A stretch of 40,198 bases of DNA from Candidatus Excrementavichristensenella intestinipullorum. Its GTDB lineage: Bacteria > Bacillota > Clostridia > Christensenellales > Aristaeellaceae. The stretch is taken from the NCBI GenBank assembly GCA_018711685.1, contig DVHZ01000051.1:1-40198 (forward strand), in the 5' to 3' direction. A program made the position numbers and the translations under genes. Numbering within the stretch: position 1 is the first letter of the stretch; every line of letters begins with the position of its first letter. The notes under the pieces are model-generated. The model saw only the letters and a list, made by a program, of their open reading frames with translations. It did no database searches and had not been told where the DNA came from. Shown here piece by piece: positions 1 to 40,198 of this stretch.

Positions 1-58
1 CCGGGGGGCGGAGCCCCCCGGCTCGGTTGGCCGCGGGGGTGCGCCCCCGCGGCCAACC
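1..58. repeat. Two GC-rich perfect hairpins at the window edge (CCGGGGGGC-GGA-GCCCCCCGG at 1-21; GGTTGGCCGCGGGGG-TGCG-CCCCCGCGGCCAACC at 25-58)
   Basis: Arms read directly and are perfectly self-complementary (9 bp and 15 bp). The first resembles the hairpin at about 39985-40003. Confidence 0.8.
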
Positions 59-146
59 CCCGGCGCCCCAGCGCCCCGGCAGGCCGGCGGCCAGGCCGTT
101 GGGATGCGCCCATCGCCGCCCCAGGCTAATCTTCTTTCCTCGCCGC

Positions 147-601: not shown

Positions 602-3286
602 GTGTTGGAAATTAATCAGACGCAAAATCAATTTCGCCCAGACTCACCCCAAAAAGGGGACCTAAAAATCTTTTTTGGATATGCTGCGGGCGTGGGCAAG
701 ACCTATGCCATGCTGGAGGCCGCCCATCAGGCTCAAAAAAGGGGAGCCGACGTCGTTGTCGGCTATATTGAACGGCACACCCGTCCCGATACATTGGCAT
801 TGTTGGAAGGGTTAGAACAGCTGCCCGAAAAAATAGTCGAATATAAAGGAATCACGCTAAAGGAACTGGATTTGGACGCCGCCTTACAGCGCCGTCCAAA
901 CATTCTGCTGGTGGATGAGCTTGCCCACAGCAATGCTGCCGGGTGCCGTCATGCCAAAAGATATCAGGATGTGGAGGAACTGCTTCGGGCCGGCATCAGT
1001 GTATACACCACCGTGAATGTACAGCATTTGGAATCCCTGAATGACCTTGTGGCCTCCATCACCCATATCTCTGTCAGCGAGCGTATCCCGGATTCGGTTT
1101 TTGATTCCGCCGACCAGGTAGAGCTGGTGGATATTGAGCCGGATGACCTGATCCTGCGGCTGCAATCCGGCAAGGTATATCAAAAGCAGCAAGCTTCCCG
1201 GGCATTGGATCATTTTTTTACAAAAGATAATCTGGCGGCCCTTCGTGAAATTGCGCTGCGCCGCACCGCGGACCAACTGAGCAAAAAGGCTCAGAAAGCG
1301 GAAAACGAAACCGCCGCTAAGGCTGGAGAGCACATCCTGACCTGTCTTTCCAGCGCCCCCTCCAACGCGAAGGTGATCCGCACGGCGGCCCGCATGGCCG
1401 AGGCTTTTCACAGCGGTTTCACCGCCTTGTTTGTGGAAACCGCCGATACCAAGGAGTTGAGGGGGGAAAACCTGAAACGCCTGCGGGACAATATGCGCCT
1501 GGCGGAACAGTTAGGGGCGCGGATCGCTACCGTGTACGGGGAGGACCCTGCCGTGCAAATTGCCGAGTACGCCAAGGTCAGCGGCGTCACCAAAATCGTG
1601 CTGGGCCGTACAAACCACCATGCGTCCCCACTTATGAAAAGCAAGACACTGGTCGATAGGCTTACCAGCAGGATGGAGGATGTGGATGTCTATATCATCC
1701 CGGATGTCCAGCCTTTATATAAGAAAAAAAGGGCGCTGTTTCACAAACCGGAGCAGGGATTCAACTGGAAGGATTTTGGGAAATCCATACTGCTCATCAT
1801 TGCCGCCACGGGCACGGGCTTTTTGTTTTATGAACTGGGACTGCGCGAGGCGAACATCATCATCGTCTATCTGCTGGGGGTTTTGCTCACAGCGGTTTGG
1901 ACAAACGGGTACTTCTATGGAATTCTGGTTTCGCTGTTGAGCGTTGTTTCCTTCAATTTCTTCTTCACAATCCCCCGCTTTTCCCTGACGGCGCTCGACC
2001 CAAACTACCCGGTGACTTTCCTGGTGATGTTGTTGGCAAGCTGCCTTTCCTGCTCCCTTGCTACCCGGGTGAAGCGGCAGGCGCGGCAATCCGCCCAACG
2101 GGCCTACTATATGGAACTTTTGATGAGCAGCAACCAGAAAATGCAGCAGGGGCAAAATGAGCAAGAGATCATCCAGATCGCCGCGAGCCAACTCCAATCC
2201 CTCCTGGACCGGCCGATCCTGTATGCGCTATTGGAAAAAGACCGGCAGATCCGTTTCCGTGTGGTTCCCGCCTCTGAAACAGAACAGGTCATGGGCAGAA
2301 TAACGCCCGAAGAACTGGGGGTAGCGGACTGGGTAGCCAAAAATGACAAGCACGCGGGCGCCACGACCAACACGCTCTCCGACGCGCAAAACCTGTACCT
2401 GTCTGTTCGGGGCAATCAGGAGGTTATGGCCGTGGTCGGCATCCCGGCCAAGTTTTATCTGCCTCTGGATGCTTTTGAGAAAAACCTGATGATCGCTATA
2501 CTGGACGAGTGTGGCCTGATTTTGGAGCGCCGTAAGCTGCGCGCCGAAAAGCAGACGGCGGAGTTGGAGACCCAGCGCGAACAGCTGCGGGCCAATCTGC
2601 TGCGCGCTATTTCCCATGATTTGCGCACGCCGCTGACCGGCATCAGCGGCAATGCCGGTATGCTGATGGAGAAGAGTTTTTCCCTGGATGAGAGCAAAAA
2701 ACAGGAAATGTACCGTTCCATCTATGATGACTCCATGTGGCTGGTCAACCTGACGGAGAACCTGCTTTCCATCACCCGGATTGAAAACGGCACCATGCCG
2801 CTGCGGCGGAACGCGGAGTTGATCGACGATATTTTTCACGAGGCGCTTTCCCATGTGGATCGCAGGGCCATGGAGCACGAGATCCATGTGGAGCTCGCGG
2901 ACGATATGCTGATGGCCAATATGGACGCCCGCCTAATCATACAGGTTATTATCAATATCGTGAACAACGCCATCAAATACACGCCTGAAGGCTCACAGAT
3001 CTGTCTGTCGGCAAAGAGGGAAAAGCGCATGGTCCGTATCGAGATTGCCGATAATGGTTCAGGCATATCCGATGCGGTCAAACGGCGCCTGTTCGATATG
3101 TTTTACACGGCGAACGCCGGCGGCGCCGGGGCAGACAGCCGCCGCGGCCTGGGGTTGGGGCTGAGCCTGTGCAAGTCGATTGTAGAAGCGCACGGCGGTT
3201 CTATTACCGTCCGGGACAACCAGCCCCACGGGGCGGTGTTCTCCTTTACATTGCCTTTGGAGGAGGTAAAGATTCAAAATGTATAA
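602..3286 (+). CDS. kdpD: Osmosensitive K+ channel sensor histidine kinase KdpD
   Basis: 894 aa. N-terminal KdpD domain (KIFFGYAAGVGKTYAMLEAA), USP-like region, TM segments, HisKA (RAISHDLRTPLTGI) and HATPase (NAIKYTPEGS, DNGSGI) motifs. Confidence 0.97.
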   Translation: MLEINQTQNQFRPDSPQKGDLKIFFGYAAGVGKTYAMLEAAHQAQKRGADVVVGYIERHTRPDTLALLEGLEQLPEKIVEYKGITLKELDLDAALQRRPNILLVDELAHSNAAGCRHAKRYQDVEELLRAGISVYTTVNVQHLESLNDLVASITHISVSERIPDSVFDSADQVELVDIEPDDLILRLQSGKVYQKQQASRALDHFFTKDNLAALREIALRRTADQLSKKAQKAENETAAKAGEHILTCLSSAPSNAKVIRTAARMAEAFHSGFTALFVETADTKELRGENLKRLRDNMRLAEQLGARIATVYGEDPAVQIAEYAKVSGVTKIVLGRTNHHASPLMKSKTLVDRLTSRMEDVDVYIIPDVQPLYKKKRALFHKPEQGFNWKDFGKSILLIIAATGTGFLFYELGLREANIIIVYLLGVLLTAVWTNGYFYGILVSLLSVVSFNFFFTIPRFSLTALDPNYPVTFLVMLLASCLSCSLATRVKRQARQSAQRAYYMELLMSSNQKMQQGQNEQEIIQIAASQLQSLLDRPILYALLEKDRQIRFRVVPASETEQVMGRITPEELGVADWVAKNDKHAGATTNTLSDAQNLYLSVRGNQEVMAVVGIPAKFYLPLDAFEKNLMIAILDECGLILERRKLRAEKQTAELETQREQLRANLLRAISHDLRTPLTGISGNAGMLMEKSFSLDESKKQEMYRSIYDDSMWLVNLTENLLSITRIENGTMPLRRNAELIDDIFHEALSHVDRRAMEHEIHVELADDMLMANMDARLIIQVIINIVNNAIKYTPEGSQICLSAKREKRMVRIEIADNGSGISDAVKRRLFDMFYTANAGGAGADSRRGLGLGLSLCKSIVEAHGGSITVRDNQPHGAVFSFTLPLEEVKIQNV

Positions 3287-23633: not shown

Positions 23634-24680
23634 CTATTGATCGATGAACACCCGGCGCAGCCCGGCCTGCCGGGCGATGGCGGCGAAGGCCTCCATCTGC
23701 CGGGGAGTGAATTTCTGCCGGTCCGGGTTTAGAAAATAGGGCCGGTTCAGCAGCCGGTACTTGTCCCGGGCCAGGGGATTGTAGTTGAGCAGCTCGTAGG
23801 CGGCATCGGGCCACAGCTCCGCCAGAAAGCGGGCGATGGCGAACAGGTTGGCCCGGGTGGCGGTGGCGGTTGGAATCAGGGGCGTGCGCACGGTGATTCG
23901 CTCCCGATAGGGCCCGGCCAACAGCCAGGACAAGTTTGCCTTGATGAGCCGGTTGTCCCGGCCGGTATAGCGGCGGTGGGCCGCGCCGTCCAGCAGCTTG
24001 AGGTCGGCGTACAGATGGTCGGTATAGGGCATCGCCCCTTCCAGCGTTCCCCGCTCCACCAGCAAGGCGCTCTCCACCGCGGTATTCAGCCCCGCCCCCT
24101 TCAGCGCCTTGAGCAGTGCCAGGGCAAAGGGGCCGTCCAGCAGGGGCTCTCCCCCGGATAGGGTGACCCCGCCCCCCTGGCGGTAAAAGGGGGCGTCCTT
24201 CATGACTTCCTCCAGAATCTGCTCTACCCCCATCTCCTGGCTGTCCCAGCGCAGCGCCCCGGTGGGGCAGGCGTCCATCAGGGCGGGCCAATCCTCCTGC
24301 GCCAAGGGGTCCAGGGCCAGCCCCTCGCCCCGGCGGGCCATGCCTCCCTGTCGGGCCAGGCTCAGGCAAGCGCCGCAGCCCACGCACCGGCTGGGAAAAT
24401 ACATGGGCCGCCTTTGGGGGCTTATGCCCTCCGGATTGTGGCACCAGGCGCACCGCAGGGGGCACCCCTTGAAAAATACCGTGGTGCGGATGCCCACGCC
24501 GTCGTGGGTGGAAAAGCGGCGGATGTCGAACACCAGCCGGCTGGCCCTCCCGTCCAGCTCCCCGCCTTGCTCCACGTCCATTGGCCCCGCCTGCCGCCCA
24601 TCCAGATTCGCCGGGCCCTTCCCCGCCCCTGGGGCGGCGCTCATGGGGGGCAGGATTTCCCGGGTGCTTGCCCTTTCCAT
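23634..24680 (-). CDS. Glycyl-radical enzyme activating enzyme (radical SAM)
   Basis: CPLRCAWCHNPE (CX3CX2C radical SAM motif), RRFSTHDGVGIRTTVFFKG, GGVTLSGGEPLL; directly downstream of the GRE gene. Confidence 0.92.
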   Translation of the reverse strand: MERASTREILPPMSAAPGAGKGPANLDGRQAGPMDVEQGGELDGRASRLVFDIRRFSTHDGVGIRTTVFFKGCPLRCAWCHNPEGISPQRRPMYFPSRCVGCGACLSLARQGGMARRGEGLALDPLAQEDWPALMDACPTGALRWDSQEMGVEQILEEVMKDAPFYRQGGGVTLSGGEPLLDGPFALALLKALKGAGLNTAVESALLVERGTLEGAMPYTDHLYADLKLLDGAAHRRYTGRDNRLIKANLSWLLAGPYRERITVRTPLIPTATATRANLFAIARFLAELWPDAAYELLNYNPLARDKYRLLNRPYFLNPDRQKFTPRQMEAFAAIARQAGLRRVFIDQ

Positions 24681-24685
24681 GGCCG

Positions 24686-27037
24686 CTACACCCCCGCGTA
24701 GCTGGTGCGGCGGATGATCTCGTCCTGGATCTCCCCGGCCAGCTCGGTAAAATAGGCGGTATACCCGGCCACCCGCACGGTAAGGCTCCGGTAGTTTTCC
24801 GGGTGGGCCTTGGCGTCCAGCAGGTCCCGGGGGGACACCACGTTGAACTGGACGTGGGGAATTTCCAGATCCACAAAGGTGCGCAGGAACAGGGCGAACC
24901 GGTCGATGCCCCCCTGGCTTTCAAAGAACTGGGGCAAAAACTTCATATTGAGCAGCCCGCCGTTGCTGGTGAGGCCCTTGTCCAGCCGGGACACCGACTT
25001 AAGCACCGCGGTGGGGCCGCTGACGTCCCGGCCGTACACCGGGGACATGCCCCCGTCGGCCAGGGGCTGCCGGGTCAGCCGTCCGTCGGGGGTGGCGCCT
25101 ACGTTCTGCCCCATGGGCACGTGGGCGGACACGGTGTACATGCCGGTGTGGTAGGGCCCGCCCCGGTAGTTGCGGTAGCGGCCCAGCCTGTCCCGGAAAT
25201 ACTGGGCCCACTTGGCCGCCAGCATGTCCACCCAGGCCACGTCGTTTCCGTACTTGGGCACCTTGTTGAGCAGCCGGGCCCGCAGCGCCTCCTCCCCCTG
25301 GAAGTTCTTTTCCAGGGCCCGGAGAAGCCGGGCTCCGTCCACCCGCTTTTCCTCAAACACCGCCACCTTCAGGGCCGCCAGGCTGTCGGCCAGGTTGGCG
25401 GCCTGGATCATCTGGATGCCGGAGAAGTTGTACCGGGCGCCCCCGGCGGTGACGTCCAGGCCCTTGTCCATGCAGTCCTTCACCACGGCGGAGAGGAAGG
25501 GGGTGGGCAGCAGCTCCATATGGGCCCGCTCCACCTGTTCGCAGGCGGACACCATCCTGTCGATGAAGTAGTCCAGCTGCCGGGCGAAGGCGGATTCCAG
25601 CGCCTCAAAGCTCTGATAGGTGGCCAGGCTGCCGTAGTCAGGGCCCAGCCGGGCCCCGGTGAGCAGGCACTTGCCCCCGGTGAGGGTGAGCTCCAGGGCC
25701 TTGTTCAGGTTGAACATGGCCGCGTCGCTCCAGCCCAGACAGCAGCCCTGGGCTGTGAGCTCCACGCAGCCCACGATGGCGTAGTCCCTGGCCTCCTCCT
25801 GGGATACCCCCAGCTCCATCAGCGCCGGGATCACCGCCTTGTCGTTGAAGAACTGGGGCATGCCGCTGCCCTTGGACACCACCTGGATGGCCTTTTTCAG
25901 CAGCGGGTCCCCCACCCCGGGGTGCAGCCGCACCGACAGGTTGGGCTGGGGCAGGCCCAGGCGCTCCTGGGCCTCCAGGAACAGGAAGGACAGCGGATTG
26001 CATACATCTTCTCCTGCCTCGTCCTGACCCCCCAGGGCGATGTTGAAGCCGATGGGGAAGCCGGCGAAGTACTTGGCGCTGCCCGCGTTGCGCAGGTATA
26101 CGATCTGGTTGAATTTGAGGAACAGGCACTGGATCAATTCCAGGGCCGGCTCCGGGGCAATCCGCCCCGCGTCCAGGTCCGCCGCGTAATAGGGCCATAG
26201 GATGCGGTCCAGCCTGCCCGGCGAAAAGGAGGAGGCGTTGGACTCCATGTGCAGCAGGGTGAACAAAAACCACAGGGATTGCAGCGCCTGGTGAAAGGTG
26301 CGGGCCGGGGCCTGGGAAAGGCTTTCGCATACCTGGGAGACCTGCAGCATGTCCTCCCGCCAGGGTGCGTTTTCCGGCCGGGCGGCCTCTTGCGCCAGCA
26401 GGTCCCGGTAGCGCAGCATGAAATGGCTGGCCCCCTCCATCACCAGGGCCACCGCCCGGTAAAAGGGCTGCCGGTCCGGCGGGGCGGCGGCCAGGCGCTC
26501 CAGGGCTTCCCGGCGCAGCCCGTCGGGCCCCTTCTCCAGCCAGGTCCGGCAGTCGGGGCAGATGTGGCCCTGGGCGTGGTCCTTTTGGTTAATCTTCACC
26601 ACCATCGCCAGTTGGTCCAGCTGCTCCCCGCACCGGGCGCGCAGCACGTCCTCCAGGGATTTGCCCTGCCAGAAGGGCTTGATCTCCCGGCGGAACAGGC
26701 GGATGTCCTCCTCCCGCACCAAGAACCTATCCTGGGGCCGGGTGGGCAGGGTTTCAAACTCCCGGTCCACCCAGGCGCTGCCGCTCTCGGGAAACACCAC
26801 GCCGTAGCGCACCCCGGCGGTGCGGTTGCCCACGATGAGCTCCTCCGGCTCCACCGCGATGGCCAGGCCCTCCATGGCGGCCCGCAGGGCATAGGCCCGC
26901 TGCATCATGGGGCTCTCCCCTGGGTGCTCCTTATAGCTTTGGGTGATGATCAATGCCTGTTCGATGGATACATAGCGAGGCTGGGCCAGCATCTTCTCCT
27001 TGAGCCGGTCCACCCTGGCGGGGACTGCCTGGCGCAC
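24686..27037 (-). CDS. Glycyl radical enzyme (PFL-like superfamily), substrate unassigned
   Basis: 783 aa; thiyl/base motif GCVE (GCVELTAQGCC) and C-terminal glycyl motif VRVAGYTAYFTEL; GTG start with GGGGAGG SD. Confidence 0.93.
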   Translation of the reverse strand: MRQAVPARVDRLKEKMLAQPRYVSIEQALIITQSYKEHPGESPMMQRAYALRAAMEGLAIAVEPEELIVGNRTAGVRYGVVFPESGSAWVDREFETLPTRPQDRFLVREEDIRLFRREIKPFWQGKSLEDVLRARCGEQLDQLAMVVKINQKDHAQGHICPDCRTWLEKGPDGLRREALERLAAAPPDRQPFYRAVALVMEGASHFMLRYRDLLAQEAARPENAPWREDMLQVSQVCESLSQAPARTFHQALQSLWFLFTLLHMESNASSFSPGRLDRILWPYYAADLDAGRIAPEPALELIQCLFLKFNQIVYLRNAGSAKYFAGFPIGFNIALGGQDEAGEDVCNPLSFLFLEAQERLGLPQPNLSVRLHPGVGDPLLKKAIQVVSKGSGMPQFFNDKAVIPALMELGVSQEEARDYAIVGCVELTAQGCCLGWSDAAMFNLNKALELTLTGGKCLLTGARLGPDYGSLATYQSFEALESAFARQLDYFIDRMVSACEQVERAHMELLPTPFLSAVVKDCMDKGLDVTAGGARYNFSGIQMIQAANLADSLAALKVAVFEEKRVDGARLLRALEKNFQGEEALRARLLNKVPKYGNDVAWVDMLAAKWAQYFRDRLGRYRNYRGGPYHTGMYTVSAHVPMGQNVGATPDGRLTRQPLADGGMSPVYGRDVSGPTAVLKSVSRLDKGLTSNGGLLNMKFLPQFFESQGGIDRFALFLRTFVDLEIPHVQFNVVSPRDLLDAKAHPENYRSLTVRVAGYTAYFTELAGEIQDEIIRRTSYAGV

Positions 27038-39083: not shown

Positions 39084-39701
39084 ATGAACCAACGGAGGGA
39101 TTTGCGCTTCTGGAACCGGACAGCGCATCTGTACGGTCCCTTTATGAAGCGGTGGGAGGGAATGTATCAGGAAATGGCGGCGGAAATCGGAGCCTATCTG
39201 TCGCGGGACGAGGATATTCTGGAGTTGGCCTGCGGAAGCGGGCAGTTGTCCTTCCGGCTCGCCCACAAAGCGCGGCTGTGGGAGGCCACGGATTATTCCC
39301 CAAAAATGATCGCCGAAGCCCGAAAGCGGGTTCGCTCCTGCCGGCTGCATTTTTCCGTACAAGACGCCACAGCCCTACCCTACGCGCCGGAATCCTTTGA
39401 CGGGGTGGTAATTGCCAACGCCCTGCACATCCTGTCCAATCCTGACGGGGCGATGCGGGAAATCCATCGGGTCCTTAAACCCGGAGGATGGCTATTCGCC
39501 CCCACCTTCACATGGCGCGAAGGCAAAGCGTCCCGGGTCCGGCAAGCGCTCTTGACCCTGGCCGGATTCAAGGCATACCGGCAATGGGATAGAGCGGGAT
39601 TAACCAGATATATCCAAACCCAAGGCTTTGCGATAGTGTCTAACTCCATGCTCAGCAGCGGCCTCGCGCCGCTATGCTGCCCCATCGCCCGCAAGCAATA
39701 G
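39084..39701 (+). CDS. Class I SAM-dependent methyltransferase
   Basis: DILELACGSGQLSFRLA (motif I), ATDYSPKMIAEAR, VQDATALPYAPESFDGVVIANALHIL, IHRVLKPGGWLFAPTF; GAGGAGG SD. Confidence 0.92.
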   Translation: MNQRRDLRFWNRTAHLYGPFMKRWEGMYQEMAAEIGAYLSRDEDILELACGSGQLSFRLAHKARLWEATDYSPKMIAEARKRVRSCRLHFSVQDATALPYAPESFDGVVIANALHILSNPDGAMREIHRVLKPGGWLFAPTFTWREGKASRVRQALLTLAGFKAYRQWDRAGLTRYIQTQGFAIVSNSMLSSGLAPLCCPIARKQ

Positions 39702-39890
39702 CGCCCCCCAAGGCCCGTTACACGCGGGTAGCGCTTCCAAGGCCTCCTGAGGAGGGCCCAAAGCGAAGATCCCCGACCCAAGACAGCACCCCAGCGCCGC
39801 GCCAACCATCCTATCCGGCGAGTTTTTGAACCGCATCGCCTCCCCCCACAGCCTGAAACAGCGCAACGCCTTCCGCCGCCGCACCGTTTC

Positions 39891-40198
39891 AGGCCGTTGT
39901 CCCACCACCGCGCCAGCGCGTATGGCGGTTCCAAGGGGGCGTCCCCTTGGCGGGGGTCCAGGGGCGAGGAGTCCCTGGCGGGGGTCCGGGGGCAGCGCCC
40001 CCGGCGCCGAGTCAGCCACCCCATCCTGCGAATCTTTGCGCCCCACCGCATCCTGGGACCGGCCCGAACCACCATAGCGGTTACCGCCACCGCAACACTC
40101 AAGGCCGTTGCTCCACCTACGCGCCAGCGCGGATGGCGGTTCCAAGGGGGGCCATCCCCCCTTGGCGGGGGTCCAGGGGCGAGGAGTCCCTGGCGGGG
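39891..40198. repeat. Direct repeats (~211-215-bp period) carrying an ordered set of GC-rich hairpins, running off the window
   Basis: aggccgttgt...gcgccagcgcg.atggcggttccaagggg...ccttggcgggggtccaggggcgaggagtccctggcgggg occurs at 39891-39983 and 40102-40198. Confidence 0.88.

Follow-up and report, generated by a model that had tools for sequence, protein, structure and literature searches.

We lean towards reading the tandem repeats at the right edge of the window, which is the whole analyzed stretch of 40,198 nucleotides, as the left-hand portion of a composite element that is non-autonomous and non-coding and in which the stems of one hairpin, the second of module C (C2), are kept perfect mainly by recopying at the DNA level. 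The full element is roughly 1,000 bases long (about 0.8 to 1.2 kb), lies between genes, and is present in dozens of copies in the genome. As an interspersed repeat, it is modular and of a separate type that appears to be specific to the species.

Tandem module A copies and the composite element

Two direct repeats, with a start-to-start spacing of 211 bp and 78% identity over 89 nt, were found at the right edge of the window (Table 1). This agreed with the initial annotation, which had reported two copies of about 210 bp with ordered hairpins at 39780-40198. Copy 1 consists of an imperfect stem, a linker, and three hairpins (HP1 to HP3) with CGGGGGT spacers. The contig end cuts copy 2 before HP3, which is therefore visible in copy 1 only, while intact module A copies elsewhere (e.g., locus L061) include HP3 and are followed by module B. 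Contig C126 of the same genome (G000) could be aligned to the window from 39789 onward. The methyltransferase gene ahead of the element ends about 150 bp before the start of the module A profile and is on the same strand as the element. Elsewhere in the window, a glycyl radical enzyme (PFL-like) is encoded at 24686-27037 on the minus strand and is followed on that strand by a putative activating enzyme at 23634-24680, so assigned from its sequence.

Table 1. Positions of the element parts and of the neighboring gene in the window
Feature	Position	Strand	Basis or remark
Truncated module C of another element copy	1..59	+	covariance model, E = 0.00017
Class I SAM methyltransferase gene (Methyltransf_25/11), neighbor outside the element	39084..39701	+	domain profiles
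Left border zone, diverged and linker-like, ahead of the first A unit	39780..39844	+	alignment of G000:C126
Module A copy 1, ~211 bp	39845..40055	+	repeat register, nhmmer profile match 39850-40005, alignment
HP1 of copy 1, CCAAGGGGGCGTCCCCTTGG	39931..39950	+	sequence position, allele counts
HP2 of copy 1, CCAGGGGCGAGGAGTCCCTGG	39958..39978	+	sequence position
HP3 of copy 1, CCGGGGGCAGCGCCCCCGG	39986..40004	+	sequence position
Module A copy 2	40056..40198	+	ends at contig end, inside the spacer after HP2
HP1 of copy 2, CCAAGGGGGGCCATCCCCCCTTGG, 10-bp arms	40142..40165	+	sequence position
HP2 of copy 2	40173..40193	+	sequence position

The hairpin sequences given previously were right except for HP1 in both copies. 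HP1 of copy 1 has five G opposite four C, and HP1 of copy 2, which had been described as a 9-bp stem with a GCCAT loop, is CCAAGGGGGG-CCAT-CCCCCCTTGG, with 10-bp arms and a 4-nt loop. The proposal that the arms of HP1 change in step did not hold. The CCAT form was present in 43 copies, and the other alleles were shorter or had unequal G and C runs (G6/C4, G7/C4, and G5/C6). Covariation in module A was at the level of shuffled alignments (0.028 versus 0.027; 25 aligned copies). The fold energy of the whole 211-nt unit was likewise close to that of shuffles (z = -0.80), and only its local hairpins stood out.

When the genome was searched with a 419-bp query, 48 matches to module A were obtained. 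Because the unit recurs genome-wide, chance was excluded as the origin of the repeat, and its description as a dispersed structured repeat was borne out. Its non-coding nature was also supported: the indels that distinguish the copies, in G-runs and elsewhere, have lengths that are not multiples of three, and coding sequence was rejected on this ground. The genome itself is a fragmented MAG (2.68 Mb, 206 contigs, 89.8% complete) in which many element copies are cut by contig ends; the copies were studied in the sequence stretches around them. Module B, of about 310 bp, gave 55 matches to the B query region, and a covariance model placed module C at 58 sites. Wherever a locus had several types of module, the order was A (one to three copies), B, and C (one or two copies); module C was also found alone. 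The left ends of the element were ragged among 55 copies.

At the left edge of the window, the truncated module C holds a first hairpin (C1), CCGGGGGGCGGAGCCCCCCGG, and a long hairpin, GGTTGGCCGCGGGGG-TGCG-CCCCCGCGGCCAACC. Thus, the contig starts in the right end of one element and stops in the left end of a second one. The assembly breaks inside copies at both window ends, and the element accounts for contig breaks of this genome.

Within module B, the core GGCGGAGCC..GTGGCGGAGCC is conserved. Two-sided changes were seen at 3 pairs (8 cells) of the module B helices, which is modest support for pairing. No other single stretch of the element was as conserved as the core GGGCGGAGCCAC..GTGGCGGAGCCC (L061, about 2812-2852, and its copies); the core has a symmetric GGA/GGA internal loop, and two copies show a compensatory change of one pair from A-U to G-C. 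A conserved spacer of about 110 bp between successive C modules (L061, about 3100-3206, and L133, about 218-324) is a possible fourth module.

Module B was found in 1 of the 120 family genomes searched, namely, that of the window, and was not found in the 119 relatives. A degenerate pattern of its core gave no match in viral contigs or in public genomes of 84,980 species, among which the genome itself and very close ones may be missing. In genome G001 of the same genus, the orthologue of tadA, the right-hand neighbor of one copy, has no element downstream and different adjoining genes; given these differences, no precise empty site was found. From this one-genome distribution and the G001 locus, the element looks like a gain of this species or of its close relatives.

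For placement, genes were called with our own codon-usage scorer, which was trained on the window and recovered 25 of its 25 training genes. The gene to the left was on the strand of the element in 41 of 55 cases (P = 0.0004), often ending less than 60 bp away, and the gene to the right was on the opposite strand in 20 of 26 cases (P = 0.009), where both P values are against a null of 50%, which takes no account of how common convergent regions are in this genome. Most copies thus sit tail-to-tail, between convergent genes. As reported previously, the BOX, RUP, SPRITE, and IS elements of pneumococci are likewise enriched between convergent genes, and this was read as insertion tolerance rather than function (PMC3049150).

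Judged by architecture, the nearest analogue is a modular repeat of the pneumococcal BOX type. The element combines a fixed module order and a variable tandem module with enrichment between convergent genes. BOX of Streptococcus pneumoniae is also a composite with a fixed module order and one module in variable tandem number, and both have folded modules, are enriched between convergent genes, and are limited to one species or group (PMC3049150). However, the tandem module is in the middle of BOX and at the left end of the element, the lengths differ (67 to 637 bp versus 0.8 to 1.2 kb), and the element is very GC-rich. Neither terminal inverted repeats nor target-site duplications were found in the element (duplications were judged by eye, at ragged left ends), and the likeness to BOX is drawn from architecture. 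The intrastrand triplex motif (TM) of Escherichia coli is similar in having a G/C-tract hairpin with an adjacent G-tract and in being intergenic and repeated in its genome (PMC4666352). Both are conserved in sequence and have no known mobility gene. This second likeness is one of sequence features, and the TM consensus reads CCCTCNCCC..GGGNGAGGG..GGGNGAGGG, whereas the order in the element is G-tract, hairpin, and G-tract.

Compensatory changes in the C2 stems

C2 lies outside the span of the initial annotation, about 0.7 to 0.8 kb further along complete element copies, and its stems are usually 14 to 19 bp long. The covariation test that the annotation had proposed, which gave nothing in module A, was positive here. 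Ten of the 18 pairs had changed on both sides, and the covariation score was 0.205, compared with 0.055 for shuffled alignments and at most 0.036 when the partner was slid. When 33 C2 hairpins were compared with the consensus pair at each position, there were 120 double Watson-Crick changes, 2 G-U pairs, 4 one-sided mismatches, and 1 position unpaired on both sides, with the copies of one genome not being independent events.

Selection on an RNA stem ordinarily leaves G-U intermediates. In C2, G-U pairs made up 5 of 561 pairs (7 of 572 if a spurious 11-bp stem at L061 is included), whereas 24 of the 308 pairs in terminator-like stems of this genome were G-U (P = 1.4e-7); this comparison set is small (25 stems), and the stem scorer, our own script, penalizes G-U pairs and mismatches. 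C2 loops also occurred as reverse complements of one another (GTAG/CTAC, AGAT/ATCT, and CAAG/CTTG). Three such inverted pairs were found against 0.33 expected (P = 0.002), with one reverse-only and one complement-only pair, all of these being small numbers. In a looser, enlarged set, a stem of at least 13 bp was found at only 40 of 62 distinct C1-like sites, and 652 of 676 pairs were Watson-Crick, 12 were G-U, and 12 were mismatched. The inner arms of C2 are near-constant (GCCGCC/GGCGGC); ordinary conservation therefore acts on part of the stem.

Template switching yields perfect stems and multi-base compensatory changes (PMC8794818). C2 carries both marks of this process, namely, compensatory changes without wobble steps and inverted loops. 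The near absence of G-U pairs, the multi-base arm changes, and the inverted loops thus match what template switching predicts, and template-switch copying of DNA is favoured, though not proved, as the source of the C2 changes. Copying through a folded intermediate had been suggested for HP1; it found no support there, where covariation was absent, and is favoured for C2 instead. The published hairpins resemble C2 in their perfect stems and multi-base compensatory changes; they were described from reconstructed histories of RNA genes, whereas C2 is represented by tens of copies in one bacterial genome with no evidence of an RNA gene (PMC8794818).

A mechanism consistent with these observations would be as follows. 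The element may have spread as passive DNA, through an activity in trans and/or recombination, and may persist best downstream of genes. The number of A modules would grow or shrink by slippage or unequal exchange. At C2, a strand would fold on itself or switch template during replication, and one arm would then be recopied from the other, sometimes with inversion of the loop, so that the perfection of the stem would be upheld mainly at the DNA level. The low share of G-U pairs could also be due to transcription of both strands between convergent genes, with both RNAs having to fold, or to a protein that depends on a perfect palindrome in the DNA. If whole-arm recopying is true, covariation, the usual proof of functional RNA structure, can arise without RNA function. 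The many C2 copies in one genome, with their inverting loops and Watson-Crick-only stem changes, would then be a direct test set.

Terminator, structured RNA, and REP readings

It is unlikely, although not negligibly so, that the element is a bidirectional terminator or a 3'-end RNA stabilizer, with selection acting on the RNA stems of both strands and thereby likewise eliminating G-U pairs. The convergent placement and the strong, stable hairpins agree with such a role, as does the fact that a perfect palindrome folds from both strands. However, by the rule used, a T-tract was found at none of the 34 perfect stems (at least 13 bp) beside C1, which makes the C2 stems unlike ordinary terminators. 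Several copies sit beyond the apparent terminator of the upstream gene, module B is not kept in relatives, and the hairpin pairs matched in other phyla (below) have no preference for gene orientation among the matches listed. No terminator was predicted at the element in the window. As a terminator for the convergent right-hand gene, C2 was not favoured either, with no T-tract on either side.

A structured RNA family in many copies, either a riboregulator or another non-coding RNA, would account for the conserved core of module B and for the two-sided changes in some of its helices. We consider it improbable. At gathering thresholds, no Rfam family was found in the window, and the full element gave only weak, sub-threshold matches. 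Furthermore, module A lacks covariation, the fold energy of its unit is ordinary, and the element is restricted to 1 of the 120 genomes searched.

The initial annotation had suggested a REP/BIME-like or RNA-like repeat and proposed a search for a RAYT/Y1-type transposase. In the REP/BIME reading, a RAYT, which is a Y1 HUH transposase, would recognize the hairpins as single-stranded DNA and move them. The element is indeed palindromic, dispersed, intergenic, hairpin-based, and mostly 3' of genes, and known REP/BIME sequences are likewise dispersed extragenic palindromes, mostly downstream of genes and often clustered (PMC3733652). One Y1_Tnp is also present. However, this was the only one found in the 89.8%-complete genome, and it is an IS200-type TnpA (contig C81; L060 292-840, minus strand) on a contig where profile searches detected none of modules A, B, and C. 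This TnpA sits inside an apparent insertion sequence of its own. No RAYT flanked by repeats and no other mobilizing enzyme for the element was found in the genome. REPs are defined by a GTAG or CGTC tag, which is left unpaired on one side of a short palindrome (PMC3733652). By inspection of the aligned hairpins and their upstream context, no such tag abuts the stems: module A stems are preceded by GGTT or CGGGGGT, and the CGTC ahead of C1 is set off from the stem by AGGGGGT. The element is also a much larger, modular unit of about 0.8 to 1.2 kb, with C2 stems of 14 to 19 bp. Membership in the REP/BIME group was thus not upheld, and movement by a RAYT is improbable.

That the repeats are an assembly or binning artefact, seen because the MAG breaks there, is hardly credible: many copies do lie at contig ends, but complete copies flanked left and right by unique genes are found inside contigs (for example, C126, of 106 kb, has three and C107 has one), with the same module order in each.

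Hairpin pairs with G-tract spacers in other genomes

The hairpin frame shared by modules A and C (GGGGT, stem, CGGGG, next stem) also occurs in other species. In a public genome collection, at least 113 stretches (loci L205-L317) matched an exact hairpin pattern, and the matches listed included Streptomyces, Amycolatopsis, Magnetococcales, Desulfovibrio, Acetobacteraceae, Ktedonobacter, Butyricicoccus, and others. Pairs or arrays with GGGGT/CGGGG spacers were seen, for example, at L213 5619-5648 and L217 5055-5085. Within the phylum of the window, the exact 22-base hairpin pattern was present in 1 of 399 sampled genomes, the window's own, so this exact form is rare there.

These cross-phylum matches were chosen by the sequence of one hairpin, with the second hairpin unconstrained past its leading G-run. 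Among the matches listed, the innermost arm position paired in 71 of 78 distinct second hairpins, against a shuffle expectation of 34 (maximum of 46 over 2000 shuffles), which is strong covariation of the arms. The 64 intergenic cases among them were spread over all gene orientations (18 ++, 17 --, 15 +-, and 14 -+), with no preference. Apart from two tRNAs in one locus, no Rfam family was found in nine cross-phylum loci, and a full-text search of a literature library for the cross-phylum hairpin sequences gave no bacterial paper.

We tentatively put forward the possibility that C2 and the GGGGT-spaced pairs belong to one undescribed class of intergenic DNA elements, in which the stems are rewritten by hairpin-templated copying while the frame of perfect stem and G-tract persists. 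As proposed, the class would take in Actinobacteria, Proteobacteria, Chloroflexi, Desulfovibrio-type bacteria, and Firmicutes. If true, template switching would have left a natural record of itself in living bacteria. The pairs may be a single family or may be convergent products of one mutational process.

Other hairpin arrays were observed within the family. In genome G025, which belongs to another genus, short GC hairpins form separate dispersed arrays (L032, L038, and L043-L058), in which the spacers are ACCCC and the core is near-constant. Genome G072 contains intergenic runs of perfect hairpins with arms of up to 25 bp (L176, L178, L180, L182, and L184); their stem sequences are unrelated, and the runs adjoin C1-like GGGGGG hairpins.
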